From the NCBI GenBank assembly GCA_002898795.1, contig BEIG01000030.1, forward strand, positions 1 through 32,953: DNA of 32,953 nt, given 5' to 3'. Every line of letters starts with the position of its first letter. The stretch's first letter is position 1. Under the pieces are notes generated by a model that did not search any database, was not told the origin of the DNA, and saw only the letters and a list, made by a program, of their open reading frames with translations. Source of the DNA: a bacterium HR30. GTDB taxonomy: Bacteria > Desulfobacterota > Binatia > HRBIN30. Positions 114 through 26,671 of this stretch are shown here, in pieces. The position numbers and the translations under genes are program-made.

Positions 114-1499
114 ATGCCACCCTCTGCTCTCTCGCGACACTCTTCGCAACACGATGCGCCGACTGTGATCATTGGCGGCGGCATCGCTGGACTTGCCGCA
201 GCGGTGGAGCTTAGCCACCGCGGCCAACGCGTACTCGTGCTCGAGGCCCGCCAGCGTTTGGGTGGTCGGGCGGCTTCGTTTCGCGAACCAACGACAGGCG
301 ACGAGGTCGATAACGGCCAACACGCCATGATGGGTTGCTACCACCATACGCTCAACTTCCTCGAGCGCATTGGCGCTTCGAAGAAACTCGTTTGGCAGGA
401 TCGCCTCCGGGTGCCTTACGTCGACCTGGCTTCGGGTGAGCGCGCCACCTTGTGTGCGGGGGGCGGACCCAGTCCGTTCCACGTTGCCCATGGGATCGCT
501 CGTTTTGGCCTCTTGCCCCGGCGTATGCGATTCGAAGCCTTACTCGGAGGCGTTCGGATTTACCTCCTGCGGCAGCGCCGCGATCCATTGCTTCAGCGGA
601 TCACCATCGAGGATCTTTTGTGCCTGTGCGGACAACGGTCGCTCACCCGCCAACGAGTTTGGTATCCCATCGCGGTCGCTACCCTCAATGAGTGGCCGAG
701 CCGTGCTGCGGCAGCACCCTTCGCGGAAGTTGTCGCCCGTGCCTTTTTCGGTTCCCAACGAGATGCACAATTTGTTTTCCCTCGTGCACCTCTAAGTCAG
801 CTTTACGTGGACGACGCACGCGCGTTCATCGAAGGCCACGGCGGGGTGATACGGACTGGGGCCGTCGTGCAGCGGCTGTTGTGTCAGGAGGAACGAGTCT
901 ATGCCGTTCAGCTCCGCGACGGAACCATGCTCCCTGCGGCTCAAGTAGTCTGCGCAGTTCCGCCTGACCACGGCCGACGGCTCTTGCTAGAACACGGCAT
1001 AGACATCCCAGAGGCTGCATACTCACCCATTGTGTCCCTCCACCTTTGGTTCGACCAACCACTGGGACTGCCTCCCTTTGTCGGTTTGCTCGGCGGCCAC
1101 GCGCAATGGGTGTTCGACCGGCAAAACTTGTGGGCTAACCCGATGGCGCAAACGAGCGGGTACCCGTACATCGCGAGCGTCGTTATTAGCGCAGCGCACG
1201 AGGAAATCTCCTTCTCAGACCGCCAACTGGAAGATGCTGTGCTGAACGAACTTTTTCGTGCGTTTCCAGCCCTTCGCGGGATCCGGCTCAGGCATGTCAT
1301 CGTCATACGGGAGAAGCGGGCTACACCGTCGCTCACACCGTGCTTCGAACGCCGGCGCCCGGCTACCCAGACGAAGATCAAAAACCTGTTCCTGGCCGGG
1401 GATTGGGTGGCAACCGGCCTACCCGCTACCATCGAAAGCGCGGTTGCCAGCGCGGTTGCGGCAGCCAACGCGGTTGTCCTCCGGCGAGAAAGGGCATAG
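114..1499 (+). CDS. hpnE: Squalene-associated FAD-dependent desaturase / hydroxysqualene dehydroxylase HpnE
   Basis: N-terminal dinucleotide-binding motif VIIGGGIAGLAAAVEL...LEARQRLGGRAASF; C-terminal LFLAGDWVATGLPATIESAVASA typical of HpnE; context with hpnG and hpnH. Confidence 0.9.
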   Translation: MPPSALSRHSSQHDAPTVIIGGGIAGLAAAVELSHRGQRVLVLEARQRLGGRAASFREPTTGDEVDNGQHAMMGCYHHTLNFLERIGASKKLVWQDRLRVPYVDLASGERATLCAGGGPSPFHVAHGIARFGLLPRRMRFEALLGGVRIYLLRQRRDPLLQRITIEDLLCLCGQRSLTRQRVWYPIAVATLNEWPSRAAAAPFAEVVARAFFGSQRDAQFVFPRAPLSQLYVDDARAFIEGHGGVIRTGAVVQRLLCQEERVYAVQLRDGTMLPAAQVVCAVPPDHGRRLLLEHGIDIPEAAYSPIVSLHLWFDQPLGLPPFVGLLGGHAQWVFDRQNLWANPMAQTSGYPYIASVVISAAHEEISFSDRQLEDAVLNELFRAFPALRGIRLRHVIVIREKRATPSLTPCFERRRPATQTKIKNLFLAGDWVATGLPATIESAVASAVAAANAVVLRRERA

Positions 1500-1500
1500 G

Positions 1501-2292
1501 ATGCAAGGGTTGATGCTTCCGGTCGCCGTGTTCGCTGCCCTGCCCTGGGAGTGCAAGTGCGTGTTACCCGCTCTGCGCGGTGTTCGGCGGGGGAAAAGCG
1601 GTGCATTCAAGTGGTGGGAAGGCAATGCGGGGCCTTTTCGCGTCCGCTTGGTCCAAACTGGAATTGGCATAGAGCGAGCAACAAAGGCCACCAACACGGT
1701 TCTCACTGAATTCCCGTGCACGCTTGTGGTCAGCACAGGCTGCGCCGGTGGGCTCACCGCAACCCTCGAAGTGGGCGCCCTCGTGATCGCCAGCGAGATT
1801 GTTTGTGGCGTCACTGGTTCGGTGTTTTCGGTAGCAGAGCCCGTGGTTGCCTCCTTCGCCGAGGCGACAAACGGAAGTGGTCTCAAGTATGTGATTGGCC
1901 GCCAGCTTTGCGTCAGCAAACCGCTCGCGTCGGTGGCAGCGAAGCAACAAGCCGCCATCCGCTTTCAAGCCCTCGCTGTGGATATGGAAAGTGCCGCCGT
2001 CATGCGGGAGGCCGCCAGGCGGGGGATTGCCTTTGCCAGTGTGCGCGCAGTTCTCGATCCTGCGCTGAAAGAACTGCCGCCCACTGACGGGCTCGTAGAT
2101 CCTGCAAGTGGGCGCGTGCGGCCTGGCAGCTTGCTTCGGCAGGTCATTCGTGGAGGTCCTGCAAGGTGGCAGGAGTTGCACGAACTTTACAACTGGGTGC
2201 AATTCGCGCAAAGCACGTTAACACGTTTTTATGGCCGGTGGTTCGCGTCGCGTTCCACCCCAACTTGGAGTTCGTCTGCAGGGCAAAGTTGA
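1501..2292 (+). CDS. hpnG: Hopanoid-associated phosphorylase HpnG (adenosylhopane nucleoside phosphorylase)
   Basis: ATG at 1501 directly after the hpnE stop (the longer ORF call from 1258 is an upstream extension). MQGLMLPVAVFAALPWECKCVLPAL...STGCAGGL...VDMESAAVMREA is typical of nucleoside phosphorylases. Confidence 0.85.
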   Translation: MQGLMLPVAVFAALPWECKCVLPALRGVRRGKSGAFKWWEGNAGPFRVRLVQTGIGIERATKATNTVLTEFPCTLVVSTGCAGGLTATLEVGALVIASEIVCGVTGSVFSVAEPVVASFAEATNGSGLKYVIGRQLCVSKPLASVAAKQQAAIRFQALAVDMESAAVMREAARRGIAFASVRAVLDPALKELPPTDGLVDPASGRVRPGSLLRQVIRGGPARWQELHELYNWVQFAQSTLTRFYGRWFASRSTPTWSSSAGQS

Positions 2293-2313
2293 GTCGACGG
2301 GAGGTTCGGAACG

Positions 2314-3342
2314 ATGCGTTTTCCCTTGCACATCACCACGGACATGTTGAAGTGGCAGCTCAAAAATTGGTGGCGTGGCAACAAACGTTACCCCTTCGTG
2401 CTCATGTTGGAGCCACTACACACTTGCAACTTGGCTTGCATCGGTTGCTCGCCGGAGCGGTACAACGGAGACCTAAAGGACCGCCTTCCTCTGGACGAAT
2501 GTCTGCGCGCGGTCGACGAGTGTGGCGCGCCCGTTGTGTCGATCTGCGGTGGCGAGCCAACCATCTACCCGGAGTTGCCGGAGCTGGTCGAGGGGATTAT
2601 CGCGCTCAAGCGTCACATTTACCTGTGCACGAACGGCATCTTGCTCGATCGCTTCTACCAACGATCCAGGCCGCACAAGCGATTATCGATCAATGTTCAT
2701 CTCGACGGGCTTCGTGACACACATGACTACGTGGTGAATCGCAAGGGCGTGTTCGACAAGGCCATTGCCATGATTAAGGAAGGCAAGCGCCGAGGCTACT
2801 CCGTGTGTACCAACACGACCATTTACCGCGAAACCGACATGAACGAGATTGAGGCGATGTGCCAGTTGCTCACGGAACTCGGCGTGGACGGAATTCTGCT
2901 CTCCCCTGGTTACCACTACGAGGCTGTGGAAGGGAACCACTTCCTGTACAAAAACGAGATCCACGAAAAATTCCAACGCGTGCTGGCGTTGGCCGACAAG
3001 TATCCGGTTTCGTCGACACCACTGTTTCTCGAGTTTGCAGCAGGGCGACGGGACTACCCCTGTACCCCGTGGGGCAACCCAACCCGCACCCCTAAGGGCT
3101 GGAAGGGTCCTTGTTACCTCATTGCTGGAAACTACTACCCAACGTGGAAGGAGTTCTGGAACGGCGTCGACTGGCGGTATTGGGAATCGCGCCAGGATCC
3201 CCGCTGCCAAAATTGCCTCATGCACTCAGGCTTCGAACCCTCGGTGATCCGAAAGCTGGGAGAGAACCCGCGCGATGTGTGGACGATGATCAAGTGGAAC
3301 TTCTCCAATCCCCCGAAGCCCGCGCAGGCGGCCCAACACTAG
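2314..3342 (+). CDS. hpnH: Radical SAM protein HpnH (adenosylhopane synthase)
   Basis: CNLACIGC (CX3CX2C) radical SAM cluster motif; MRFPLHITTDMLKWQLKNWWRGNKRYPFVLMLEPLHTCNLACIGC and the CxxCLMHSGFE C-terminus match HpnH. Confidence 0.93.
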   Translation: MRFPLHITTDMLKWQLKNWWRGNKRYPFVLMLEPLHTCNLACIGCSPERYNGDLKDRLPLDECLRAVDECGAPVVSICGGEPTIYPELPELVEGIIALKRHIYLCTNGILLDRFYQRSRPHKRLSINVHLDGLRDTHDYVVNRKGVFDKAIAMIKEGKRRGYSVCTNTTIYRETDMNEIEAMCQLLTELGVDGILLSPGYHYEAVEGNHFLYKNEIHEKFQRVLALADKYPVSSTPLFLEFAAGRRDYPCTPWGNPTRTPKGWKGPCYLIAGNYYPTWKEFWNGVDWRYWESRQDPRCQNCLMHSGFEPSVIRKLGENPRDVWTMIKWNFSNPPKPAQAAQH

Positions 3343-5461: not shown

Positions 5462-5826
5462 CCTGGCCTCACCTAGGACTTATTCCATCGCAGGCCTTTA
5501 GCCCCGCGCTGTGGACGCAGACCCCTTTGACCCGTCTATTCCATCCCCACCACGGTAGGCGCATCCCCGGTTACCGACATCAAAGAAAAAAGAAGAGCTA
5601 ACTGCGCTGCTCATGAGTGCTCCCTGGGCCTCTCTCAACACCTGGGTCGACGCCGAAGCCTAGCCAACCCACTTCACCAATCAACGAGGAACACCGTGGC
5701 TGGCACCTTGGAGTGCTAGACAACTTATTTCTTGACAACCGTTGCCAACCTGTCGTAAACGGGTTGGGCGCGAGGGAGAGATTTAAGGTTTTTCTACGGA
5801 GCAACGTGACTGCCGTGGGGGTCGCT

Positions 5827-8730
5827 ATGAAAATGACCAAAGGATTTGTGGGGTTCGCTGTTGCGGGAGCCATGGGGATGGCCTTGTCCCTGGGAGCCGG
5901 TATCCCCGGTGTGGCACACGCGCAAAGCTGCACACAAGGGCTGTTTGCAAACAAGTGCATTCCGGGCGGTGGGTCGAAAGGAACTGACTGCCATTTGGAG
6001 TGGCTCGTGCAAACGATGCAGATCCCAGAGTCACCGAAGTTCACGGGCTCCGGGCTACCGAAAAACAAGTATCTCTGTTACGAAGGCGATCCCCGGTGCG
6101 ACATCGACCCCGACCTGAACAACAAGAGTTGCACCGTACCGGTGCAACTCTGCATCAATAACGCCGACCCGCGTTTTGCTGGGTCGTGCATTCCGTCAGC
6201 GCTTGCGCTGTTCGAGGTGAAAAAGCCCTCGGCAACCAGCCTCGATCCGGCAGACGTAGCTAACCTTGCAGCATTGGAGTCGGCAGCAAGCTCCGGGTTC
6301 GGGCTCACCGTGATGCGGAGGAACACGCCAACGACTTCGGGAGGCTCGAACTCGTCTCCAAACCTCTGCGGCGCACCAGTTCCCATTGTCGTTCCCCTAA
6401 AGACAACTGCTTCGGGAACAATTCGCCCGGGAACGCGGGCACTTCGAGTCATGGCGAAAACCACGACCGGGCTTATCGACCCCGATACGTTGAAAATTCA
6501 ATGCTTGCCGAGCACCTGTGGCAACGGAATCGTCGAGGCGGATCATGAAACCTGCGACGACGGGAACCGTGCCAATGGCGACGGCTGTAACCAGGGTTGC
6601 CAAAGAGAGCTGCCCTCTCCCACCCCGACGCCGACTCCAACGGTCACTGCCACCGCAACCAATACCGGTACGCCAACGGTAACTCCAACGCCAACCGTAA
6701 CGGACACGCCAACCCGTACTCCTACGGAAACCAAAACCTTCACACCGACGCGAACGCACACACCAACCCATACGCCAACGATCACACACACGCCGACGCG
6801 AACCCTGACCCCCACCTGGACGTGGACCCCAACCCGCACCCCAACGCCCACGAATACCCCCACCTCTACGAACACACCCACAGTAACCCATACACCAACG
6901 GTAACCCCCACACCCACCAATACCCCCACACCGACCGCGACCTTTACACCGACACCTCCTCCAGAAATTTATCTGGATTCACCCGCACACGGTGTGTTCA
7001 CCACCGCGAGCACGGCCACCGTCACCGGGCACGTGGTCAACCCAGTGGCTGGCCAGGTAGTTAAGGTCAACGGCGTGACCGTTTGTTCAGGGCCGTGCAC
7101 CAACTTCAGTTACAACATGCCTCTCGATGCGGGGCTTATCTTCAACCCAGTGCTCGCGGAGTTGACGGTTCCATCTACCGGCTTCAAAGCGCGCGACCGG
7201 CGTGTGATCATTCGTGGTCAATCGGTGGCGGACGGCGCATTTTCTACCAATGCTTTGGGCTTGCGCATCAACGACTCTGGCTTCGACAAGCTCGAACCGA
7301 TTATCCAGAGCATGATTCCGCTCGACCTGGCCGAACTGCTGCCTCCGGGAATGTTGATCACCGACGACGACATCTGTGTGGCTAGTCTCTTCGGAGCCTG
7401 CCTCGGCGGAATCGACAAGGTTTATGTATGTAACCCACCGGGTGCTGGTTGCGCACCTGGAGATCGTCCGTCCATCTCCGGCTTCACCATCAACATCGAC
7501 TCGCAAAGCGGCTACGTCCAACTCGATATTACGCTGTACAACGTGCGGCTCCGCCTGTGGATTGTTGGCTACGGAGTCGTCCCGGACTGCGCTTTACGAG
7601 TTACCGCGAACTGGGCATTGATCCGCGGAAATTACACCCTTGCGCCGGCGTCGCCCGACCCAAGCTACCTCGACGTCAATCAACAGGGTGACGTCACGGT
7701 AACGTTCTCGAGTTTCAATGCTTCGATCGAAGGCGGCTTTGCCTGCGACATTCTCGATGCCTTGGCCCCGTTGTTCGTTGATCTCGAGCAAACCGCCCGC
7801 GAGCAATTGGTGAACTACCTGCGCGACCCGGATGGTCCCGGACCGCAGGATTCGGTGATCGCCGACGCTATGGAGACAGCCTTGTCTCAGCTCTCGATTG
7901 CCGGGGCGATTGGCGGTGCCCTCGGTGTGCAACTCGACGCGCCGTTCAACTTTGTCGCCCCTGACAATCAAGGCGTCACGTTCGGGATCAATGCGCGGAT
8001 TATGTCGACCGATAAGCCCGCGTATACACCGGATCTCACCGCTTCCTTACACGTGCCTGAAGCTTTCCCTTCGTATGGCACCACCACACCGGTACAAAAC
8101 TTGCCCTACCACATGGCCATCAGCCTCGGCACTTCGGCGATGAACCAGTTGCTGAAGGCCCTGACCGAGGAAGGAATCTTGAACATCGACATTAGCCAGA
8201 TTGACCTCGGCTCCGGTCCGGTGGACATCACTTCCGACCTCTTAGCCCTGTTCTTGCCTGAGTTCGGTAACCTACCCTCTGGTACGCAGCTCACGATCCG
8301 CATCGAGCCAACGATCGCACCGGTGCTCACTGGTAACCTCGGACCCAACCCAGGAGACTTGGCAGAGCTAAAACTCGCCCATCTGTTGATCTCGATCTGG
8401 TCGCGCGATCTTTCCACGCTGTACCTACGGGGTGCCGTCGACGCGCGCGCTGGATTGCAGCTCAACTACGTGGCCGCAACCAACTCCATCAGTTTCGCGA
8501 TCAGCAACATCAACCCGAGCGATGTCAGGACGGTTGTGCTGCAAAACGCTGTCGGCGTGAACGAAAACGACTTACAGTCGATCATTCCGCAACTCGTGCA
8601 GCAGTTCCTGCCGTCGCTTGCGGGTGGGCTCGGATCGCTCCCGCTCCCGTCGCTACTCGGGTTGCAGCCAGTGGGCGTGGAGCTGTCGCGTCTGGGTCAG
8701 GTGATCACCGTCTTCGTGAACTTCCAGTAA
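5827..8730 (+). CDS. Secreted multidomain protein: signal peptide, DUF4215-type Cys-rich repeat, Thr/Pro linker, Ig-like domain, BPI/LBP-like (TULIP) C-terminal region
   Basis: Start at 5827 gives [34 protein letters not shown], a signal peptide; [29 protein letters not shown]; long (T-P-x) linker; C-terminal pattern [29 protein letters not shown]...LPSLLGLQ. Confidence 0.85.
6125..6151. repeat. Perfect inverted repeat (12-bp arms, 3-nt loop) within the surface-protein CDS
   Basis: AGAGTTGCACCG-TAC-CGGTGCAACTCT. Confidence 0.9.
6610..6960 (+). repeat. Degenerate Thr/Pro-encoding repeat region (about 115-aa linker)
   Basis: Translation [52 protein letters not shown]...[11 protein letters not shown] is a run of ACNCCNACN-type codons. 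Confidence 0.9.
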
Positions 8731-13429: not shown

Positions 13430-14062
13430 ATGGCAGGACGGAAGAAAAGCCAACAACTTCGCGAGGCGATCGTGCGGGGCGCGGCCGAGGTGTTCTCCAA
13501 GCACGAATTTCACGAAGTGCTTACGGACGATATCGCCGCGCACGTGGGCGTTGGCAAAGGGACTCTGTACCGGTACTTCCGATCTAAAGAAGAGCTCTAC
13601 CTCGCGGCCATTGGCGACGGGCTGCGTGAGCTGCACGCGTCGGTAACCGCCGTGCTGGCCCAGCCTTCACCGCTGGTGCCGACCATCGAACGGCTTGCGC
13701 ACACGCTCATCGATTACTTTTGGGACAAACGCGACTTCTTCGTCTTGATGCATCGCTTGGAGCCAAAGCTCAAGGCAAAAGAGCGAGCGGAATGGCGGCA
13801 GCGTCGCGACGAAATCGTGGACATGCTGCGACGCCGTATCGACCAAGCCGTGCAGCGTGGAGAAATTCCCCGTGTTTCATCCCGCGTGGCGACCGAAGCA
13901 TTGCTCGGGATGATCCGCGGTGCCTGCGTCTACCGCCAAGGCAGTGATCGGCCGCAGGAAGTAGCTCGTACGATTTCTCGCCTATTCCTCTCCGGACTTT
14001 TGGGAGGGGAGTCGCGCAGCCAAAGCCCCGCCCCGCGCCAGGTCGTCACTGCTCGCCGCTGA
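13430..14062 (+). CDS. TetR/AcrR-family transcriptional regulator
   Basis: HTH: REAIVRGAAEVFSKHEFHEVLTDDIAAHVGVGKGTLYRYFRSKEELYLAA; heads an efflux operon. Confidence 0.93.
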   Translation: MAGRKKSQQLREAIVRGAAEVFSKHEFHEVLTDDIAAHVGVGKGTLYRYFRSKEELYLAAIGDGLRELHASVTAVLAQPSPLVPTIERLAHTLIDYFWDKRDFFVLMHRLEPKLKAKERAEWRQRRDEIVDMLRRRIDQAVQRGEIPRVSSRVATEALLGMIRGACVYRQGSDRPQEVARTISRLFLSGLLGGESRSQSPAPRQVVTARR

Positions 14063-14071
14063 GGAGAAATT

Positions 14072-15163
14072 ATGCAGCATTTTTACGGTCTTTTGCTCTT
14101 CATTTTGCTTGTTTTTGCAAATGGCTGCGGCCGCGCCGGCGGAACGGAAAGCGCTGCTGCCACTCGAAGGGAAACTGCAGTGCGAGGAGTCGTCGTGAGG
14201 GTGGCCAGGGCCGTGGAGCGACCGGTGAAGCGAACGGTCAACTTCGTCGGCACCTTGTACGGCCGGGAAGAGGTCACCATCGCCAGCCAAGTGGAAGGAC
14301 AAGTGGAGCGTATCCACGCTGACCTGGGCGACGTGGTTACCGAAGGGGCTGTGCTATTGGAAATCGACGACGACGCGTGGCGTGCCAGGTTGCGAGAAGC
14401 CGAGGCCAATTTGGCCAAAGTCCGGGCCGACGAGGAGCGAGCTCGCCAATTGGTTCAGGAGAACGTCATCTCGCCGCAAGAATACGAGGCTCGAAAAACG
14501 GCCGCGCAAATGGCCGAGGCTCAAAGGGATCTCTTGCAGGTCACGTTACGCCACGCCCGCGTAACCTCCCCCCTCAGTGCAGCCGTGGCGCGCCGCTTCG
14601 TTTCTGTTGGCGAGTACGTCAGAGCCGGAACCCCGCTTTTTACTTTAGTCGTGCTAGATCCGCTGAAGCTACGCGGGGACGTGCCAGAACGGTTTGCTCC
14701 CGACTTGGCACCCGCGCAGCCCGTAGAGGTTCGAGTCGACGCCTACCCAAGCGAAATTTTTGCGGGATCGCTGGCACGCATTAGCCCGGCTTCGAATCCC
14801 CAGAACCGCTCTGTCACCGTTGAAGCCACGGTTGCCAATTCAGGCGGCAAGCTCAAGCCCGGTTTTTTCGCCAATGCGGCCATTGTCACCAAAGTTGACA
14901 ACCGGGCGGTCTGCATCCCGCAAGAGGCGGTGATGTCCTTTGCGGGTGTCCAGCGCGTCTTCGTCGTCACTGCCGGAAAGGCGGAGGCCCGTGAAGTCGA
15001 GACTGGCCGTCGCCTGCCCGACGGTTTGCTCGAAGTATTGCGCGGGGTCAACGCTAACGAGATTGTCGCGATATCCGGGTTGAGCAAGCTGGACACGGGT
15101 GTACCCGTCGAAATCGACGGCGACGTGGAGGAACCGGGGACAGCGAGCGCGGGGGATCTATGA
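14072..15163 (+). CDS. RND efflux periplasmic adaptor (MFP), probable lipoprotein
   Basis: LLLFILLVFANGC lipobox-like signal; lipoyl/hairpin GTLYGREEVTIASQVEGQVERIHADLGDVVTEGAVLLEID; SD-like GAGGAG upstream. Confidence 0.9.
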   Translation: MQHFYGLLLFILLVFANGCGRAGGTESAAATRRETAVRGVVVRVARAVERPVKRTVNFVGTLYGREEVTIASQVEGQVERIHADLGDVVTEGAVLLEIDDDAWRARLREAEANLAKVRADEERARQLVQENVISPQEYEARKTAAQMAEAQRDLLQVTLRHARVTSPLSAAVARRFVSVGEYVRAGTPLFTLVVLDPLKLRGDVPERFAPDLAPAQPVEVRVDAYPSEIFAGSLARISPASNPQNRSVTVEATVANSGGKLKPGFFANAAIVTKVDNRAVCIPQEAVMSFAGVQRVFVVTAGKAEAREVETGRRLPDGLLEVLRGVNANEIVAISGLSKLDTGVPVEIDGDVEEPGTASAGDL

Positions 15164-18100
15164 AGCTCGTCGAGATTTGCATCCGCCGCCCCGTGGCGGC
15201 CACCATGGGAATCGCATTCCTGGTGGTCCTGGGGCTGTTTTCCTACCGGCACTTGTCGGTCGATTTATTCCCAAACATCGACTTTCCGATCGTCGTCGTG
15301 AACACAACGCTCAAGGGGGCGAGCGTGGAGGAGATGGAGTCGAACGTCACCAAGGTCATCGAAGAAGCGGTGAACACCATCGAGGGTATCGAAGAGTTGC
15401 GTTCGACGACCAAAGAAGGCCTCTCCCACGTCGTCGTCATCTTCCACCTCGAGCGCAATCGGGAAGCGGCGGTGCAGGATGTGCGCGACAAAGTGGCCGC
15501 GGTGACGGCAAAGCTTCCCGCAGGCACGGATCCGCCCGTTGTGATGAAGTTCGATGTGGAGGCTTCTCCGATTCTGTCCATCGCCGTCGCTGGCAAGCGA
15601 AGCCTGAAGGAGGTCACGGAGCTTGCGCGTAAGCTGATTAAGGAGGATTTGGAAACTCTGCCCGGCGTGGGCTCGGTCACCCTCGTGGGGGGACTCGAAC
15701 GAGCCATCAACATCGAGATCGACCCGCAGCGGCTTGCGGCGTATGGGCTCTCGATCAATCAAGTTCGCGCCGCCTTGCGGGCGCAAAACGTGGAGCTCCC
15801 GAGCGGCCACGTCGACCAAGGCAGTAAGGAGCTCACGCTGCGCACAATGGGGCGCATCGAGCGAGTGGACGACTTTCGTCAACTGATCATCGGGAATGTG
15901 CAAGGCCGGCCGGTAACCTTGGGAGACGTAGCCACCGTCGTCGATGGTTTCGTCGAACCGCGCACGATGGCCCGTCTCGACGGCAACCCTGCCGTGAGCT
16001 TGCTGGTGCGGAAGCAAAACGGCCAAAACACGGTCGACGTCATCAAACGAATCAAGAGCCGACTCCAGGAGCTGCAGGCGGTACTTCCGAGTGACGTTCA
16101 CATGCAGGTCGTGCGGGACCACTCGCGGTTCATCGAGCGGTCCATCGAGGAAGTGCAGTTTCACCTCGTGCTGGCTGCGGTGTTGGTGAGCCTTACCGTG
16201 CTCCTGTTCATCGCCAACTGGCGCGCCACGCTCATTGCAGCAGTGGCAATCCCTACCTCGATTATCGCCACGTTCACCCTCATGCGGTGGCTCGGGTTCA
16301 CCATCAACAACATCACCATGCTGGGGCTGGTGTTAGCCACGGGCATTGTCATCGACGATGCGGTGGTCGTGCTGGAAAACATTTTCCGTTACGCGGAAGA
16401 AAAGGGGTTGCCACCGCGCGAGGCAGCGGCTGCAGCCACGAAAGAAATCAGCCTCGCGGTCATGGCGACCACCCTGTCCCTGGTCGTGATTTTCCTTCCC
16501 GTGGCCTTCATGGAAGGCCGGGTGGGCCGCTTTTTCAACAGCTACGGGGTGACCGTGGCCTGTGCCATTATGGTCTCGCTGCTGGTGTCGTTTACCTTGA
16601 CCCCCATGCTTTGCGCCCGCTTCCTCAAGGTCTCGCCTCGCCACGGGGGAAGCAGTCGACAGCGAACATTTTACGCCGCCATCGATCGCGGCTATGGGGC
16701 GTTGCTGCGCTGGTCTCTGCAGCACCGGTGGGTGATCGTGGTGGGGTCGCTGCTAACGGTAGCCGCCACCGTTCCGTTGTTCCGCATGGTGGGGAAAGAT
16801 TTTTTGCCCCAGGACGACCAAAGCGAGTTCGAAGTGATTGTGCAGACACCCGAGGGCTATAGCTTGGCGCGCACGGATGCGACCATGCGAGCGCTCGAGG
16901 CGAAGTTACGCGAGCTACCGCACATCGAGCACTTGCTCACAACCATTGGCGACGCCACTGGCACCTTGCGTGCGGGCGAAGGACCCGTGACCGAGGCTTC
17001 GATTTACGTCCAGCTTACGGACTTGCGGCACCGTAAGGAGTCCCAGTTCGAATTGATGCAACGGGCTCGGGAAATCTTGGCAACGTTTCCCGACCTGCGT
17101 GCAAGCGTGCAAAACATCAACCTGTTCATGGGGGGCGGCCAGCGTTACACCGAGATCGAGCTTGACCTCACAGGGCCGAGCTTGACCAAGCTAGAAGAAT
17201 ATTCGCGCCGCCTGATGGCAGGGATGCGTCGGATCCCAGGCATTGTGGACGTGGACACAACCTTATCCGTCCGCCAGCCAGAGCTACGCGTGCACATTCA
17301 CCGGGAGAAAGCCGCTGACCTTGGTCTACGCGTAGAAGACATCGCGACCACGCTCCGGACCTTTGTCGCTGGCGAGGTGGTGACCAAATACAAAGAGGAC
17401 CAAGAGCAGTACGACGTGTGGCTGCGCGCGCGCGGCCCGGATCGAGTGGACGCGCAAACCCTGGGCGACCTGAGCATCGCTACACCGTCCGGTTCTCTCG
17501 TAAAGCTCTCGAACGTCGCCACCCTCAAGGAGGAACTCGGCCCCGCGCAAATTGACCACTTCCGGCGGCAACGGAAGGTCACGATTGTGGCGAACCTGGA
17601 AAATCTCCCCCTGTCCGAGGCCATTGCGCATATCGAGAAGATTCTGACGAGCTTGGATCTGCCCCCAACTTACAAGGCCGAATTTAGCGGTCGCGCCAAA
17701 GCCCTTGGCGAAACTGGCTCGAACTTCGCCGTGGCGTTCGTGCTGAGCTTGGTGTTCATGTACATGATCCTGGCGGCGCAGTTCGAAAGCTTGCTCCACC
17801 CGATTACGATTCTGCTCGCGCTACCCCTGTCGGTACCCTTTGCCCTGCTGTCACTCTGGCTGTTGGGGGAAACGTTGAACATCTACAGCGTGCTTGGTCT
17901 TTTCATGCTTTTCGGCATCGTCAAAAAGAACGGAATCTTGCAAATCGACTACACCAATACTCTTCGGGCACAAGGCATCGAGCGAGACACCGCCATTCTC
18001 GAAGCCAACCACGTTCGCTTGCGCCCAATTCTCATGACCACCCTGATGCTCATCGCGGGCATGATCCCCATCGCCCTGGGTCAGGGACCCGGATCGAGTA

Positions 18101-18294
18101 CGCGCGCCTCGATGGCCAAAGTGATCATCGGCGGGCAAGCGCTTTGCCTCCTTCTTACCCTGCTTCTCACCCCGGTAGCCTATTCTTTGTTCGACGATCT
18201 AGGCAAAGCCCGGGTGCTGCAAACGCTGGTGCGTTGGGTGCGAGCGCGCGGCGACCAGATCCTTGGCGTGGCAAACGGACGAGCAAAAGCGTAA
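15160..18294 (+). CDS. RND efflux permease (HAE1/AcrB family)
   Basis: MKLVEICIRRPVAATMGIAFLVVLGLFSY, TGIVIDDAVVVLENIFRYAEEKG (Asp-Asp proton-relay motif); ATG overlaps the MFP stop (ATGA). Confidence 0.95.
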   Translation: MKLVEICIRRPVAATMGIAFLVVLGLFSYRHLSVDLFPNIDFPIVVVNTTLKGASVEEMESNVTKVIEEAVNTIEGIEELRSTTKEGLSHVVVIFHLERNREAAVQDVRDKVAAVTAKLPAGTDPPVVMKFDVEASPILSIAVAGKRSLKEVTELARKLIKEDLETLPGVGSVTLVGGLERAINIEIDPQRLAAYGLSINQVRAALRAQNVELPSGHVDQGSKELTLRTMGRIERVDDFRQLIIGNVQGRPVTLGDVATVVDGFVEPRTMARLDGNPAVSLLVRKQNGQNTVDVIKRIKSRLQELQAVLPSDVHMQVVRDHSRFIERSIEEVQFHLVLAAVLVSLTVLLFIANWRATLIAAVAIPTSIIATFTLMRWLGFTINNITMLGLVLATGIVIDDAVVVLENIFRYAEEKGLPPREAAAAATKEISLAVMATTLSLVVIFLPVAFMEGRVGRFFNSYGVTVACAIMVSLLVSFTLTPMLCARFLKVSPRHGGSSRQRTFYAAIDRGYGALLRWSLQHRWVIVVGSLLTVAATVPLFRMVGKDFLPQDDQSEFEVIVQTPEGYSLARTDATMRALEAKLRELPHIEHLLTTIGDATGTLRAGEGPVTEASIYVQLTDLRHRKESQFELMQRAREILATFPDLRASVQNINLFMGGGQRYTEIELDLTGPSLTKLEEYSRRLMAGMRRIPGIVDVDTTLSVRQPELRVHIHREKAADLGLRVEDIATTLRTFVAGEVVTKYKEDQEQYDVWLRARGPDRVDAQTLGDLSIATPSGSLVKLSNVATLKEELGPAQIDHFRRQRKVTIVANLENLPLSEAIAHIEKILTSLDLPPTYKAEFSGRAKALGETGSNFAVAFVLSLVFMYMILAAQFESLLHPITILLALPLSVPFALLSLWLLGETLNIYSVLGLFMLFGIVKKNGILQIDYTNTLRAQGIERDTAILEANHVRLRPILMTTLMLIAGMIPIALGQGPGSSTRASMAKVIIGGQALCLLLTLLLTPVAYSLFDDLGKARVLQTLVRWVRARGDQILGVANGRAKA

Positions 18295-18332
18295 AAGCCT
18301 CGAACCTCTGGGCGTGGAAGGAGGGGAAGGAT

Positions 18333-20099
18333 ATGAGGCAAGCAGCCTACAACCTAATCGGGCTCAGCGTGGCCCTGGCCGTAGCCGTTTCCCGCACCGC
18401 CGCGGAACCCATCGACCTTCGCCAAATTTCGGCGCCAACGTTGCGCGCCGTCGAAACTCTCGAGCAACTGCCTGGTATCGGAGAGGTTCTACGCGATCAG
18501 TGGAGTGGAGAACTGCCGGCGGATGCCCAAGAAGCGGAAACCGACTTATCGCATTACGGCTTACTACTCGAAGCCAAGATGCAACCAACGACTTTGGCCC
18601 AGTGCATTGCGCTCGCACTGCAAAACAACACGGGCTTGCAAGTCCAGCGGCTCAACCCGATCGCCGCAAGTGCCGAGGTCCGGCGAGCTCGTGCCATCTT
18701 CGATCCGCGCTTTTTCGCGAACTTGACGCGCGATCGAGCCACGCAGCCCGCCACGACCTTTCTGTTTGCCGGCGGCTCCCCTGTGCTCTTCAACCAAAAC
18801 TTTACCCTGAATGCTGGCATCCGCAAAACCTTACTGACCGGCGGACAAATCTCGGTTCAGTTCAGCAACAACCGCAGGCTCACTAATCCCTCCCTCGCAA
18901 ACCCACTGGTGCCTTTGTACACGACATCCCTGAGTTTGAACCTCGTCCAACCACTCCTGCAAAACTTTGGTTGGCGCTATGCCCTCCTTCTGGTCGACAT
19001 CGCAAGCGCGGCACAGGAAGCGGCTTACCACCAGTACGTTGCCGCGATCACGAACTTGGTTGCACAAGTGGAGCGCGCCTATTGGGGCCTGGTGCTCGCC
19101 AAGGAAAACGTGCAGGTGCAGGAACGAGGGCTGGAACTCGCCAAAGAGATCCTTCGGCAAAACGAAGGGAAGTACAAAGTAGGGGCCCTTCCCCACGCTG
19201 CAGTGCTCGAAGCGCAAGCCAACGTAGCAAGCCGTGAGGCTGCTCTGATTCGGGCAAGGAACGCGGTCGTGGTGGCTCGCGACCAGTTGCGTGCACTGAT
19301 CAACGCCAAGACAGAAGATCAGTCCGCCCTTGTCATGCTCGACCCGGAGGATCGTCCCACTGTGGAGCCCTACCTGACCGATTTGAAGACGAGCCTCGAT
19401 CGTGCCCTGCAACAACGGCCCGAGTTAGCAGCCGCACGCATGGACGTTCACGCAAAGGGGTTGCAGCGGAAAGTCGCGCAAAACCAACTGCTGCCCCAAC
19501 TGAACCTAGTCGGGGGTATCGGGGTAAACGGCCTAGCGGGAGCCGAGCAGCGGGTGCTGTTTGGCGATCCCCCGCAGCCTGTTCGCGTCAACCCGTCTTA
19601 CGTTGGCGGTTACGGCGATGCCCTCGGTCTCCTACCTGACGGGCGGTTTTACAACTACGCCGTCGGTGCCACCATCGAAGTGCCCCTGGCCAACGCTCAG
19701 TCCAAGGCAGCCTATGCGCAGTCGAATATCAGCTTCCAGCAGTCACGCTTGAACCTGCAACAGCTTCAGGAAGCAATCACCCTCGAGGTCAAAACCGCGT
19801 TGGCGAACTTGGAAAGCGACCTAAAGGCCATCGAGGCCACACGAGCTGCACGATTGGCGGCAGAAGAAAACGTGCGCAATCAAAGGGCACGCTACGAGGT
19901 AGGCTTGGCGACGACCAAAGACTTGCTGGACTACACCGAACAGCTAACGCGGGCGCAGTTTGCCGAAGCCGAAGCCCTGGTCCGCTACAACACAGACCTT
20001 GCCGAACTTCGCCGCGTGGAAGGCACACTGTTGCAAGCACGAAATGTCGTCGTGGAACCTCTGCATACGGAAAAGCCTTCCTGGTGGGCGCGGTTTTAG
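18333..20099 (+). CDS. TolC-family outer membrane efflux protein
   Basis: MRQAAYNLIGLSVALAVAVSRTAA signal-like start; paired coiled-coil/beta repeats typical of OEP proteins (TLAQCIALALQNNTGLQVQRLNP, RYEVGLATTKDLLDYTEQLTRAQ). Confidence 0.9.
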   Translation: MRQAAYNLIGLSVALAVAVSRTAAEPIDLRQISAPTLRAVETLEQLPGIGEVLRDQWSGELPADAQEAETDLSHYGLLLEAKMQPTTLAQCIALALQNNTGLQVQRLNPIAASAEVRRARAIFDPRFFANLTRDRATQPATTFLFAGGSPVLFNQNFTLNAGIRKTLLTGGQISVQFSNNRRLTNPSLANPLVPLYTTSLSLNLVQPLLQNFGWRYALLLVDIASAAQEAAYHQYVAAITNLVAQVERAYWGLVLAKENVQVQERGLELAKEILRQNEGKYKVGALPHAAVLEAQANVASREAALIRARNAVVVARDQLRALINAKTEDQSALVMLDPEDRPTVEPYLTDLKTSLDRALQQRPELAAARMDVHAKGLQRKVAQNQLLPQLNLVGGIGVNGLAGAEQRVLFGDPPQPVRVNPSYVGGYGDALGLLPDGRFYNYAVGATIEVPLANAQSKAAYAQSNISFQQSRLNLQQLQEAITLEVKTALANLESDLKAIEATRAARLAAEENVRNQRARYEVGLATTKDLLDYTEQLTRAQFAEAEALVRYNTDLAELRRVEGTLLQARNVVVEPLHTEKPSWWARF

Positions 20100-20410
20100 A
20101 ATTCCGGGCACATTCCGCTCGAAGTTGTGAAAAGTCGCTGTCGAGGTTGCGCCTTGACCTGCGCCATCACGGGCCCGACGTGAGCAGCGGCAGCAACCCG
20201 CACTGCGAAAGGCCAGGCTTCCGCGCCATCGAGCAGCTCCTTCCTGGCACAAGCCAGTTCTTCGAACGGTTTCAAGGTGCCGAACGCGAATGACCTGTGA
20301 AGCTTTCCTGCAGCGCGGATTCGAGCACTTGCTTGACCGTGTGTAGCTCCCGTCTCAGCGCGCCTTGACCCACCGCGTGCGCGCCGGTACTTAGTGAACC
20401 CACGAGTCAC
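20096..20410 (-). pseudogene. Possible decayed small gene remnant (speculative)
   Basis: Minus-strand frames give helical, protein-like segments in different frames: GALRRELHTVKQVLESALQESFTGHSRSAP* followed by LKPFEELACARKELLDGAEAWPFAVRVAAAAHVG. Confidence 0.25.
20365..20393 (+). promoter_or_regulatory. Sigma70-like promoter of the second tetR/efflux operon
   Basis: TTGACC (20365-20370), 17-bp spacer, TACTTA (20388-20393). Confidence 0.5.
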
Positions 20411-20413
20411 TAA
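20391..20413. promoter_or_regulatory. Candidate TetR operator abutting the start codon
   Basis: Inverted repeat TTAGTGA-N9-TCACTAA immediately before ATG 20414 and overlapping the predicted -10. Confidence 0.65.
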
Positions 20414-21088
20414 ATGGCGGCCACGAAGACGTCCACCGCTACGCGCACAACCGCTCCCTCGCCGACACCTCGCGGTCGGCCACCGACTCCGGGTTTACGA
20501 GAACACATCCTCGCCGCCGCCGTTCGCGTGTTTGCCAAGCATCCCTTCCACAAGGTTCGCGTCGAAGACGTGGCTTTGGAAGCTGGTGTCGCGAAGGGCA
20601 CGGTGTACCGGTACTTCACGAACAAAGAAGAAGTTTATCTCGCCTCACTGTTCCAAGGCATCGACGGACTCCAAGAAGAACTCGACCGAGTGGCTGCCGC
20701 TGAACCAGATCCGGTGCAACGGCTGGGTGCCCTCGTGAAATCCCTGTTGGAGTTCTTCTGGGGGCGCGACCTGTTCTTCCTCCTTCTGCATCGTAACGAG
20801 GAGGAGCGTAATGCACCCCACGTTCGTGCCTGGCTAGTTCGTAGGCAGCAGTTCGCCCGACTCATCGCCCGTACTCTGCAGGAAGGGATTGCCGCGGGAA
20901 GGATCCGCCGCGTCAACGTCCGCCTGGCCACCGAAGCCTTGCTCGGCATGCTTCGCGGGGTTCACCGTTACCGTGGGCCGGGAGATACCCCTGAGGAGTC
21001 CGCCAACGTTGTTGTGGACGTGTTTCTTCACGGAGTGCTGGCTCGCAGCCCGTCAAAGAGCCCGGTTCTGTTCCGGAGGAAACCGTGA
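20414..21088 (+). CDS. TetR/AcrR-family transcriptional regulator, related to the TetR at 13430
   Basis: LREHILAAAVRVFAKHPFHKVRVEDVALEAGVAKGTVYRYFTNKEEVYLAS HTH; C-terminal LATEALLGMLRGVHRYR parallels VATEALLGMIRGACVYR of the first TetR. Confidence 0.93.
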   Translation: MAATKTSTATRTTAPSPTPRGRPPTPGLREHILAAAVRVFAKHPFHKVRVEDVALEAGVAKGTVYRYFTNKEEVYLASLFQGIDGLQEELDRVAAAEPDPVQRLGALVKSLLEFFWGRDLFFLLLHRNEEERNAPHVRAWLVRRQQFARLIARTLQEGIAAGRIRRVNVRLATEALLGMLRGVHRYRGPGDTPEESANVVVDVFLHGVLARSPSKSPVLFRRKP

Positions 21089-22392
21089 AGTTGGCTAGCC
21101 ACATCGTTCTGGGTTTGTGCATGTGCGCCGTGGCCTCGGCGCAAGAAAGCAAGTCTCTCGAGGAGTGTGTCGAGCTCGCACTCCGCCACCATCCTTCGCT
21201 CCAAGCTGGGGCTGCACGCGCAGCCGCTGCGCAAGCTCGCGTTCGCCAAGCAGCATCGGCATACCTGCCCCAAATCGACGCTACCTATGCCGCTAACCGC
21301 CGTAGCACGAGCGTGGCGGCACGGACCGGAACAACCCTGGGCACCGCCACACAAACGTTCAACTTCTTCAATACCGGTGTCAGTTTCAGCCAACTGCTGT
21401 TCGACTTCGGGCAGGCATTTCACGCTATCGAGTCTGCGCAAGCGCAAGCCGAAGCTTCGAGCGCAGATTTAGAAACCCAACGGCAGCAGGTGGTCTTTGG
21501 GGTCAAGCAGGCGTACTTCACCTTGCTCACCGCTCAGCACTTGCGGGACGTTGCTGCCGAAGCCGTACGACGCAGCGAGAAACACCTGGAGCTAGCCAAA
21601 GGACGGTACGACGTGGGCTTGGCTCCCAGGCTCGATGTCACAAGGGAGCAAGCGCAGCTCGCGGCAAACCAACTCGATCTTTTGCGGGCGGAGCACAATG
21701 TCCGCTTAGGTTACGAAACCTTGCGTAATGCGATCGGACTGGAGGCTCCTGTGAGCTTCACTTTGCAGGATGTGCCCCTTACGCCACCGCCCTTGGCGGA
21801 CGAAGAGACGCTCATCAAACGCGCGTGGGAGAACCGACCGGAACTGCGCCGCCTGACGGCACAAATTCGCGCCGCGGAACAGGATCTCTTAGCGCTCGAG
21901 CGCAATCACCTCCCGGTGATTACCGGAGGGGGGCAGTATCAATGGTCGGGAGCAGTCTTCCCTTTGCAACCAAACTGGAACGTCGGTGCCGCTGTCACCC
22001 TGCCGCTGTTTCGTGGCGGACTCACCGTCGCCCAAATCGAGGCGGCGAAGCAAAGCCTCGTGGCCCTGGGACACGATGCGGATACTTTGCGCCAGAGCAT
22101 CGCCCTCGAGGTGCGGGAAGCACTGTTGCGTTACCAGGAAGCGGCAAAGAGCATTCAGGTGTCGCGACAAGGAGCGGAACAAGCACGGCAAAACTTGGAG
22201 CTGGCGGAAGGACGTTATGCCACTGGCGTGGGGAGCATTATCGAGGTCACCGACGCACAAAGCACGTTCGTCACCGCTAAGGCTCAAGAGATCCAAGCGC
22301 TTTATAGCCACCATCTGGGCGTTGCTGCTCTAGAAAAGGCCATCGGTGCCCGGATCGAGGAGCCAAAGGTTTCTTCGATGCAATGGGAGTGA
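21085..22392 (+). CDS. TolC-family outer membrane efflux protein
   Basis: GTG start overlaps the tetR stop (GTGA). MKLASHIVLGLCMCAVASAQ signal; SLEECVELALRHHPSLQAG...GRYDVGLAPRLDVTREQAQLA typical of OEP. Confidence 0.9.
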   Translation: MKLASHIVLGLCMCAVASAQESKSLEECVELALRHHPSLQAGAARAAAAQARVRQAASAYLPQIDATYAANRRSTSVAARTGTTLGTATQTFNFFNTGVSFSQLLFDFGQAFHAIESAQAQAEASSADLETQRQQVVFGVKQAYFTLLTAQHLRDVAAEAVRRSEKHLELAKGRYDVGLAPRLDVTREQAQLAANQLDLLRAEHNVRLGYETLRNAIGLEAPVSFTLQDVPLTPPPLADEETLIKRAWENRPELRRLTAQIRAAEQDLLALERNHLPVITGGGQYQWSGAVFPLQPNWNVGAAVTLPLFRGGLTVAQIEAAKQSLVALGHDADTLRQSIALEVREALLRYQEAAKSIQVSRQGAEQARQNLELAEGRYATGVGSIIEVTDAQSTFVTAKAQEIQALYSHHLGVAALEKAIGARIEEPKVSSMQWE

Positions 22393-22395
22393 ACA

Positions 22396-23526
22396 GTGTG
22401 TCCGCGAATCCGTAGACAACTCGTTTTATTTGCTGCGATCGTTTCCTTTTTCCCCGCGTGCCGCTCCGCAGGAGTTGACCCTACAGGCAAATCGTTGCCG
22501 GCCCCGGTCAGCATTGCCGAAGTGACGCAGAAGGAGGTTTTTCGCAAGGTCAAGGCGATCGGCACCGTGGAGTCGTACCACGTGGTCCGTTTGATGCCTC
22601 AGGTGGATGGGCAGCTACTCTCAGTCGAAGTTCGGGAAGGAGATTTTGTCCAAGCGGGAACTCTTCTCTTTCGCATCGATCCGAGGCCGTTTGAGAACAT
22701 GCTGCGACAACGCGAAGCCAATCTTCAGCGGAATCTGGCGGATTTGCGTGTGGCGGAAGCAGAGGCAAAACGGCGTGCGGCACTTTTCGAGCAAGGTTTC
22801 GTATCGGCGGAAGAAAACGAGCAAGCACAAGCGCGGGCGCAGACGTTGCGCGCCGCAGTAGAGGCCGACCGCGCCGCCATCGAAGATGCACGGCTCCAAC
22901 TCTCGTACTGCTCGATTTACGCGCCCATTTCCGGCCGGATGGGGCAAGTGCTGGTGCATCCGGGTAATATCGTCCGCAAAAACGAAACGATTTTGACGAC
23001 GTTGCAGCAGATGCACCCCATTCGTATTGCCTTCACGGTGCGCGAGGCAGAATTGCCTCAGGTCCTCAAACAAGCGGAGCGGGAAGCCCTCGTTGCACTC
23101 GCGTATCCAGCGGAGGACGGGGCATCCACCATGCGCGGCCACGTGGAGTTTATCGACAACCAAGTCGATCGTTCCACAGGCACAGTGCTCCTCAAAGCCC
23201 GGTTCGACAATACCTCGGAACTCCTCTGGCCCGGGCAGTTTCTCCCAGTGGAACTTGTGATCGACAAGGTCGAGCGAGCACTCGTGCTCCCGCGGGTCGC
23301 TTTGCAAGCAGGGCAGGAAGGGCCCTACGTGTTTACCTTAGAAAACGAGAACACGGTACGCGTTCGGCCGGTCAGGATTGCGTTTGAGTTGGCCAACGAC
23401 GTGGTCGTGCAATCCGGTGTTCGCGCTGGCGACTGGGTCGTTACCGAAGGGCAATTTCGGCTGTCGGATGGGGCAATCGTGGAAGTCAAGCGTCGCCAAC
23501 CGGCTGCTGCTGCGCCGCAGTCGTGA
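22396..23526 (+). CDS. RND efflux periplasmic adaptor (MdtA-like MFP)
   Basis: GTG start 3 nt after the TolC stop; VRLMPQVDGQLLSVEVREGDFVQAGTLLFRIDPRPFENMLRQREANL; APISGRMGQVLVHPGNIV. Confidence 0.9.
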   Translation: MCPRIRRQLVLFAAIVSFFPACRSAGVDPTGKSLPAPVSIAEVTQKEVFRKVKAIGTVESYHVVRLMPQVDGQLLSVEVREGDFVQAGTLLFRIDPRPFENMLRQREANLQRNLADLRVAEAEAKRRAALFEQGFVSAEENEQAQARAQTLRAAVEADRAAIEDARLQLSYCSIYAPISGRMGQVLVHPGNIVRKNETILTTLQQMHPIRIAFTVREAELPQVLKQAEREALVALAYPAEDGASTMRGHVEFIDNQVDRSTGTVLLKARFDNTSELLWPGQFLPVELVIDKVERALVLPRVALQAGQEGPYVFTLENENTVRVRPVRIAFELANDVVVQSGVRAGDWVVTEGQFRLSDGAIVEVKRRQPAAAAPQS

Positions 23527-23536
23527 GATCACCCCG

Positions 23537-26500
23537 ATGAACGTCTCGGAACTGTTCATTCGCCGTCCTGTGGCCACCACCTTGCTGATGGCGGCTTTGG
23601 TGGCCTTTGGTGCACTCGGCTACCGCTCGTTGCCGGTCAGCGACCTACCCAACGTGGATTTCCCAACCATCCTCGTTTCGGCAAGTCTTCCTGGGGCCAG
23701 CCCCGAAACGATGGCCTCCGCCGTTGCCACACCGCTCGAGCGGCAGTTCTCGACGCTTTCGGGTCTCGAGTCCATGAACTCGGTCAGTTCGCTCGGCACC
23801 ACACAGATCACGCTGCAGTTCGATCTCAGCCGCAACATCGACGCTGCCGCCCAGGATGTGCAAGCGGCAATTGCGCGAGCAGCCCCATTGCTTCCGGGCG
23901 ACATGCCCTCCCCTCCAACGTTTCAGCGGGTGAACCCGGCGGATCAACCGATTTTGTTTCTGAGTTTAACGTCCGCCACCTTGCCTCTGTGGCAACTCGA
24001 CGAGTTTGGCCAAACGCTCCTGGCGCAGAGAATCTCCATGGTCAGTGGGGTCGCGCAGGTGTTGGTGTTCGGCTCGCAGAAATACGCGGTGCGTGTGAAA
24101 GTCGATCCGCGGCAGCTTGCCAGCCGTGGTCTCGGCATCGACGAGGTCGAAGCCGCGATCCGCGCCGCCAACGTCAATCTGCCCACCGGCATCCTGCAAG
24201 GTCCGGAGCAACGTTTTACCGTGCAAGCGACCGGGCAACTGACTGCCGCCGAGCAGTACGAACCAGTGATCGTTGCCTATCGCAACGGTGCTCCCGTGCG
24301 TTTGGGCGAAGTTGCCGAGGTGATCCCTGGTGTAGAGGACGATCGCGCAGCGTCGTGGTACGGAGACGGAAAGCGTCGCCAACGAGCGATTGTCCTTGCG
24401 GTACAGCGGCAACCAGGCACGAACACGGTGGAAGTCGCCACTGCCGTCAAGGCGCTTCTGCCACAGCTTCGGCAGTTCCTGCCCCCGGCCGTAGAGTTGC
24501 ACATCCTTTTCGACCGCTCCGAGTCCATTCACCGGTCGGTGCACGAAGTGCAATTTACAATGATGCTGGCGCTGGTTTTGGTCGTACTCGTCATCTTCCT
24601 CTTCCTTCGCGACCCCTCGGCCACGGTGATTCCGAGTCTAGCCCTACCGGTGTCGTTGGTGGGTACGTTCGCCTGGATGTACCCCCTGGGCTACAGCATC
24701 GACAATCTATCGCTCCTAGCTCTCACGCTATCCATTGGTTTCGTTGTCGACGATGCCATCGTGATGCTGGAAAACATCGTACGCCACCGCGAGGCCGGCG
24801 AACCTCCTTTTCAGGCAGCCATCGAAGGTGCCCGGCAAATTGGGTTTACGATCGTCTCGATGACGTTGTCGCTCGTAGCCGTCTTCATCCCGGTGTTGTT
24901 CATGCCGGGCATTGTGGGCCGGCTGTTTCACGAGTTCGCCGTAACCATCTCGATCGCGATTTTGCTTTCCGGAGTTGTGTCTCTCACGCTCACGCCCATG
25001 CTTTGTAGCCGCTTCCTCCGTCATCGACCTCAAGGCGCGGCGTCCGGGTGGCAAGGCGTATTCGAACGCGCGTTCGCCGTGGCTCTATATTGGTACGAGC
25101 GAAGTTTGCGAGCCACCTTGCGCTGGCGTGGCTGGATTTTTGTCCTGTCCCTTGCCTTGCTCGCTGCCACCTTGTGGTTGTTCGTTCGAGCGCCCAAAGG
25201 ATTCATCCCCAACGACGACATTGGGTCGATTTTTGCGGTGGTCGAAGCAGACCAAGGTGTGTCGTTCGATGCCATGCGGCAGTACCACACCGCAGTGGCC
25301 GACATCATCCGCGCGGATCCAGCGGTTCGGGTCCTGTCCGCAAGCCTCATCGGCTCCAACGCCGCGGCGGGAAGCACCGTCAACCAAGGGCGCATGTTTA
25401 TCTTTTTGAAGCCACGGTCAGAGCGGGAGCCGATTTCCGTCGTGCTCGCCCGCTTGCGCCAAAAAACCTCGGGGATCCCGGGAGTGCGCGTCTTCTTGCA
25501 AGAAACGCCGACCATTCGCATTGGCGGCCAACTCACGAAGAGCCTCTACCAGTTCACCTTGCAAAGCCCCGACACGCAGGTGTTGTATGCCGCCGCCGAG
25601 AAACTCGAAGGGGAACTGAAAAAATTGCCCGTGCTCCGCGATGTCACGAGCGACTTACAGTTGCGGAACCCGTATTTGGATGTGGTCATCGATCGTGATC
25701 GGGCAACAGCTCTTGGCCTCACCGTGGAACAAATCGAAACCGCCTTGCACGCGGCGTACGGCGACCGCTGGATCTCGACGATTTACGCACCGAACAACCA
25801 GTATCGTGTGATCCTCGAAGTCGCGGACGCCTTTCAAACCGACCCAACGGAGCTGCCCTGGTTGTACCTGCGCTCGCAGCATGGGGCGCTGGTTCCGCTA
25901 ACAACAGTGGCACGCCTCGAGCGGCGGTACGGCCCCCTGACCGTGAACCACCTAGGCCAGCTTCCCGCAGTGACCATTTCCTTCAATCTCGCCGGTGGCG
26001 CCTCTCTGAGCGAGGCGGTCCGTGCCATCGAACAAACCGCTCAAGTGCACCTACCCGCTGGTGTGACGACAACATTCCAGGGAGCCGCTCAAGCGTTTAC
26101 GAGTTCCCTCGCTGGGATGTGGGCACTTCTGGTGGCAGCGGTTTTGGTGATCTATCTCGTGCTCGGAATTTTGTACGAAAGCTTCTTCCACCCGATTACG
26201 ATTCTGTCTGGTTTGCCCTCGGCAGCGTTCGGTGCTCTCGTGGCCCTCGAACTGTTTGGAATGGAACTCAACATCTATGGCTTTGTCGGCATCATTTTGC
26301 TGATCGGCATCGTCAAGAAGAATGCCATCATGCAAATTGACTTCGCTCTCGACGCGCAGCGCCACGAGCACAAGAGCCCCGTAGAGGCGATTGTCCAGGG
26401 CTGTCTCGTCCGCTTCCGGCCAATCATGATGACCACCATGGCCGCGCTTTTCGGTGCGCTACCCATCGCTCTAGCCGCCGGCGGCGGAGCTACTTCGCGC

Positions 26501-26671
26501 CGGCCCTTGGGCGTGGCCGTAGTCGGCGGACTGCTGTTCTCTCAGCTCGTGACCTTGTATCTGACACCTGTGTACTACACCTATCTCGAGTCGTTCTCGA
26601 GTTGGTTACGCGGCGCCCGAAAGGGAGAGCAGGCGAATCCAGAAATTTTATTGGGAACGCATCGTGGTTAG
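23537..26671 (+). CDS. RND efflux permease (MdtB/C-like, HAE1 family)
   Basis: ATG 23537: MNVSELFIRRPVATTLLMAALVAFGALGYRSLPVSDLPNVDFPTILVSASLPGASPETMASAVATPLERQ; LSIGFVVDDAIVMLENIVRH. Confidence 0.95.
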   Translation: MNVSELFIRRPVATTLLMAALVAFGALGYRSLPVSDLPNVDFPTILVSASLPGASPETMASAVATPLERQFSTLSGLESMNSVSSLGTTQITLQFDLSRNIDAAAQDVQAAIARAAPLLPGDMPSPPTFQRVNPADQPILFLSLTSATLPLWQLDEFGQTLLAQRISMVSGVAQVLVFGSQKYAVRVKVDPRQLASRGLGIDEVEAAIRAANVNLPTGILQGPEQRFTVQATGQLTAAEQYEPVIVAYRNGAPVRLGEVAEVIPGVEDDRAASWYGDGKRRQRAIVLAVQRQPGTNTVEVATAVKALLPQLRQFLPPAVELHILFDRSESIHRSVHEVQFTMMLALVLVVLVIFLFLRDPSATVIPSLALPVSLVGTFAWMYPLGYSIDNLSLLALTLSIGFVVDDAIVMLENIVRHREAGEPPFQAAIEGARQIGFTIVSMTLSLVAVFIPVLFMPGIVGRLFHEFAVTISIAILLSGVVSLTLTPMLCSRFLRHRPQGAASGWQGVFERAFAVALYWYERSLRATLRWRGWIFVLSLALLAATLWLFVRAPKGFIPNDDIGSIFAVVEADQGVSFDAMRQYHTAVADIIRADPAVRVLSASLIGSNAAAGSTVNQGRMFIFLKPRSEREPISVVLARLRQKTSGIPGVRVFLQETPTIRIGGQLTKSLYQFTLQSPDTQVLYAAAEKLEGELKKLPVLRDVTSDLQLRNPYLDVVIDRDRATALGLTVEQIETALHAAYGDRWISTIYAPNNQYRVILEVADAFQTDPTELPWLYLRSQHGALVPLTTVARLERRYGPLTVNHLGQLPAVTISFNLAGGASLSEAVRAIEQTAQVHLPAGVTTTFQGAAQAFTSSLAGMWALLVAAVLVIYLVLGILYESFFHPITILSGLPSAAFGALVALELFGMELNIYGFVGIILLIGIVKKNAIMQIDFALDAQRHEHKSPVEAIVQGCLVRFRPIMMTTMAALFGALPIALAAGGGATSRRPLGVAVVGGLLFSQLVTLYLTPVYYTYLESFSSWLRGARKGEQANPEILLGTHRG

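Follow-up and report, generated by a model that had tools for sequence, protein, structure and literature searches.

A secreted stalk protein of Binatia with a putative tandem TULIP head of the BPI/LBP/CETP type

Gene layout and modular architecture

The locus described here lies in a 32,953-nucleotide stretch of the bacterium HR30 genome (hereafter, the window). A single open frame on the forward strand spans positions 5617-8730, with a probable start at 5827 or 5833, and encodes a multidomain protein with the following layout:

5827..5925, + strand: start (ATG at 5827 or 5833) and a signal-peptide-like stretch that ends in AHA/QS and has no lipobox, identified by eye from the translation
5926..6510, + strand: Cys-rich N-module common to other secreted proteins of this genome (best identity elsewhere in the genome, 53%)
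6511..6609, + strand: single myxo_disulf repeat (TIGR02232 / DUF4215; TIGR02232 E 5e-10)
about 6613..6957, + strand: Thr/Pro-rich stalk, recognized from the sequence
6961..7227, + strand: Ig-like domain, with a weak match to Glucodextran_B (PF09136) at 6961-7134 (E 1.9e-4, below the cut-off of that model)
7228..8010, + strand: N-half of the head, BPI-N-like (putative TULIP 1; profile match to BPI-N only)
7825..7851, + strand: loop DPDGxGPxD within the N-half, conserved in an alignment of 48 sequences
8011..8727, + strand: C-half of the head, BPI-C-like (putative TULIP 2; match to BPI-C and PF02886 only)

The head accounts for the C-terminal 500 residues (7228-8727; 500 codons followed by the stop). 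The original prediction placed a BPI/LBP-like lipid-binding module at 7227-8730 on a secreted Thr/Pro-stalk protein. This forward-strand segment is real except that its first in-frame base is 7228, so that the start was given one base out; the quoted peptides are all present, in order, in the forward frame that ends at 8730. The description as a secreted stalk protein with an Ig-like domain also holds, with the signal-peptide-like start, the stalk and the weak PF09136 match all preceding the head. An Ig-like domain is found directly upstream of the head in most of the homologs inspected. The head is a conserved coding domain and not a chance frame because it retains 90-92% identity in genomes of the same genus, and identity falls to about 23% across 48 homologs, all of which are open frames.

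Copies of the N-module with the adjacent myxo_disulf repeat (5926-6609) are encoded at no fewer than five further sites in the genome (contigs C14, C18, C27, C76 and C157), and the proteins that share this combination have different stalks and C-terminal parts; the myxo_disulf repeat is found in 17 places in all. In homologs of the protein, tandem Cys-rich or EGF-like repeats occupy the position of the Thr/Pro stalk. The picture is that of a display system with exchangeable heads, among which the one analyzed here would be the putative lipid-binding head. One homolog, a bacterial protein (L089, 9597-13160, - strand), has a stalk of seven EGF-like repeats and ends in a BPI-like head, and three others (L009, L030 and L031) carry about 300 additional residues after the head, with DCGG-motif repeats and a Cys-rich terminal domain.

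Distribution of the head

As a single sequence, the head has no match in Pfam or the PDB, and NCBIfam, searched with the whole protein, names only the myxo_disulf repeat and leaves the head unnamed; hence the BPI-like character of the head could not be confirmed from one-sequence searches. A BLAST search over 59 relatives yielded 36 copies of the head in 23 genomes. A profile built from 27 copies detected it in 32 of the 152 Binatia genomes, none of which has more than three copies; searched over a 398-genome draw of the phylum, the profile matched no genome among the 381 from other classes. The alignment used throughout (A4) includes 48 copies with identities to the window sequence from 91% down to 23%, and both halves of the head are full length across Binatia. 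The closest named record is a Candidatus Binatia MAG (92% identity over the head).

Among bacterial phyla, the family profile was searched within this one; across 85,488 species genomes, a pattern search with the single head sequence, which reaches close relatives only, returned one locus. No match to the head was detected in plasmids (tblastn) or in viral contigs (family profile). The BPI/LBP/CETP C-terminal domain model PF02886 has no match in the genome that contains the window, and its two matches in the rest of the phylum are weak, each with internal stop codons.

Relationship to the BPI/LBP/CETP proteins

The family profile, in contrast to single sequences, links the head to a specific group of known proteins. 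When the A4 profile was compared with 177,635 distinct PDB sequences, BPI came first (1ewf, E 0.0073; 1bp1, E 0.0084), the next, unrelated match having an E-value of 0.83; the match to BPI consists of two stretches in the right order and with the right spacing. A smaller family profile already ranked BPI first (E 0.17). Among 24,736 Pfam models, against which each member was searched, PF02886 (LBP_BPI_CETP_C) drew matches from a larger number of members than any other model (9 of the 48; best E 0.0038), in a shared register in which model positions about 38-235 correspond to residues about 280-490. No member reaches the curated cut-off of this model (23 bits, compared with a best score of 17.1), and the window sequence itself has no match.

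Comparison of the family with an alignment of BPI, LBP and CETP (A3, whose letters agree with the PDB entries) using hhalign gave a probability of 79.7 and a P-value of 1.5e-5 over 356 columns that run through both domains. The score of 49.7 compares with at most 29.6 in 200 shuffles of A3 and 17.0 for the reversed alignment. The N-half pairs only with BPI-N and the C-half only with BPI-C, so that the head has two distinct domains arranged as in BPI; internal similarity between the two halves is not detectable, which is also the case for BPI itself. Aligned globally, the family spans almost the whole of BPI, starting with RINDSGFD paired to RISQKGLD; the score is 45.4, and the highest among 100 block shuffles is 17.2. 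Random halves of the family retain the signal. BPI, LBP or CETP used alone as a template gives a weak match. In the opposite direction, a BPI profile run blind over 197 natural ORFs (300 residues or longer) from the neighborhoods placed family members in the top eight positions; the window sequence was outside the top 20. The tests overlap in the data that they use and are therefore not independent of one another, but their registers agree.

Taken with the shuffle, reversal and natural-sequence controls, the family-profile evidence supports the original suggestion of a secreted, stalk-borne tandem TULIP of the BPI/LBP/CETP type. The head is most likely a bacterial tandem TULIP of the BPI type, and lipid binding may be expected from this kinship. 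The LBP/BPI/CETP family (PF01273 and PF02886; BPI 1bp1/1ewf, LBP 4m4d, CETP 2obd) has the same order of two different halves and is colinear with the head over both domains (500 residues in the head, about 455 in LBP/BPI/CETP), with a common RIxxxGLD start and common motifs in the C-domain. The identity is about 15%, the scores lie below the Pfam cut-off, and the head differs from the eukaryotic proteins in being acidic, in its cysteines, in its location on a stalk behind an Ig-like domain, and in being bacterial.

Comparison with known bacterial TULIP proteins

The original prediction held that the bacterial TULIPs were limited to the P47/OrfX type. That view is out of date: P47, OrfX2, YceB (DUF1439), DUF4403, DUF2140 and DUF2993 have all been described in bacteria (PMC6791001). 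In P47 and OrfX2 the domains are packed next to each other; YceB, DUF2140 and DUF2993 have one TULIP domain (PMC6791001). None of these five surfaced in the Pfam scan of the 48 members.

DUF4403 (PF14356) is a bacterial tandem TULIP similar in length to the head; it is described as pseudo-dimeric and reportedly resembles BPI along its entire length (PMC6791001). Nevertheless, the head cannot be assigned to DUF4403: no member matches PF14356, hhalign with six DUF4403 proteins scores 19.3, at the level of the null, and DUF4403 was not found in the 59 relatives. The similarity of DUF4403 to BPI/LBP/CETP (score 34.4 over 53-68 columns) is weaker and shorter than that of the Binatia family (49.7). 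By profile score, the Binatia family is thus provisionally nearer to BPI/LBP/CETP than DUF4403 is, a ranking that is provisional because the DUF4403 alignment is small (six sequences from the same phylum).

The limited literature searched contained no stalk-borne TULIP family closer to BPI/LBP/CETP. On bacterial BPI-like proteins, it consisted of the work of Levine (PMC6791001) along with animal and botulinum papers; nothing relevant was found on lipid transfer in combination with gene transfer. Bacterial TULIPs, including the tandem, BPI-like DUF4403, are thus already known, and the stalk-borne family closer to BPI/LBP/CETP would add a new branch to them.

Cysteines, charge and the conserved loop

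Three pairs of cysteines are discernible in the head family. C50 and C58 are both present in 43 of the 48 members, C121 and a cysteine near 171-173 in 47, whereas an insert cysteine near 261 and Cys 315 are either both present (24 members) or both absent (24 members). From this pattern, the pairs look like three disulfides distinct from the Cys135-Cys175 bridge of BPI; no member of the family has a cysteine pair at both of these BPI positions.

Both halves of the head are acidic in every member measured. The N-half has a median pI of 4.1 and a median net charge of -24 (range -40 to -12), compared with +13 for BPI, +2 for LBP and -5 for CETP; the window sequence has 2 lysines in this half, compared with 24 in BPI. 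The cationic tip of the BPI N-domain is not kept in the family. The DPDGxGPxD loop (7825-7851), located between two predicted helices of the N-half, resembles calcium-binding loops and is possibly a calcium-binding site.

Proposed function and alternatives

The protein is probably exported and displayed on a stalk, with the C-terminal 500 residues representing a bacterial, distantly related version of the BPI/LBP/CETP type, in which two different TULIP domains in tandem would form two apolar pockets. These pockets would hold the apolar part of a lipid; the N-module and the stalk would keep the protein at the cell surface or in the periplasm, where the head could capture or hand over apolar molecules. 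In view of its strong acidity, the head is more likely to take a neutral or weakly polar ligand, in a CETP-like use (a neutral lipid, wax or long-chain hydrocarbon), than to grip anionic LPS as BPI does. Considering this acidic surface together with reports of alkane and fatty-acid metabolism in Binatota, which are noted for alkane and methanol use (PMC8262859), capture of such a lipid or hydrocarbon is the most likely use, although the choice of ligand is a guess.

The best of the alternatives is that the same fold serves as a structural or adhesive surface domain, its apolar groove being only a core, so that the protein would be an adhesin or a matrix protein and not a lipid carrier. Such a role fits the presence in this genome of several Cys-rich stalk proteins with exchangeable heads, among them this one, and the fact that no conserved operon partner, in lipid metabolism or otherwise, was found outside the genus. 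However, those known BPI/LBP/CETP relatives for which structures have been solved bind lipid, and both halves of the head are kept full length across Binatia; a purely structural role is rather unlikely.

A different beta-rich surface fold, with BPI-like patterns that arose by chance or convergence, is improbable. This explanation draws on the fact that every single sequence falls below threshold and on the AlphaFold models, which, being built from the window sequence and one homolog (L001, 92% identical, two sequences only), are unusable (pLDDT 29.6 for the whole head and 33.9 for the C-half). It is at odds with the shuffle, reversal and natural-ORF controls, the domain-specific pairing and the end-to-end colinearity, and with the ranking of BPI as the top PDB match independently of Pfam.

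The original prediction named hopanoids and LPS as possible ligands, and neither proposal fares well. Upstream of the head gene, HpnE (E 4.6e-121), an HpnG-like protein (below the cut-off) and HpnH (E 1.5e-114) are encoded in a row on the same strand (114-3342, +), and the same order of hpn genes is present at two loci from the same genus, which could suggest a hopanoid carrier that acts with their products. Such a carrier is, however, very unlikely: between the hpn genes and the head gene lies kup, encoded on the opposite strand, the linkage is absent outside the genus, and HpnH shows no association with the head, being present in 18 of the 32 genomes that encode the head and in 71 of the 120 that lack it. 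BPI- or LBP-like binding of LPS, for which the kinship to these proteins and a host that is probably a diderm could speak, is equally hard to credit in view of the strongly acidic, lysine-poor N-half.

Evolutionary implications

Tentatively, Binatia might hold a bacterial lineage that is sister to the eukaryotic BPI/LBP/CETP proteins and nearer to them than DUF4403 and the other bacterial TULIPs are, in the form of an exchangeable lipid-capturing head on surface stalks, perhaps employed in the uptake of hydrocarbons or neutral lipids; this scenario is possible, albeit on balance doubtful. If true, the tandem BPI architecture has an identifiable bacterial counterpart. A bacterial origin of the TULIP superfamily has been argued by Levine, largely on the basis of DUF4403 (PMC6791001). 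The Binatia family bears on the origin of the BPI/LBP/CETP proteins in that it resembles them over both domains and, by the profile test, more than DUF4403 does. For an uncultured phylum, it also provides a candidate for a lipid-binding head that modular stalks would present at the surface.

Other genes in the neighborhood

Secreted, long, Cys-rich proteins with a similar C-terminal domain are encoded near the head gene at five loci from three families (L073, L075, L076, L077 and L085). This recurrent neighbor looks like part of the general secretome. In the window itself, the region 13430-29805 (+ strand) contains a TetR-regulated run of RND adaptors, RND pumps, TolC-like proteins and a MacA/MacB-like exporter, of which the RND, TolC and MacB assignments were made by eye.
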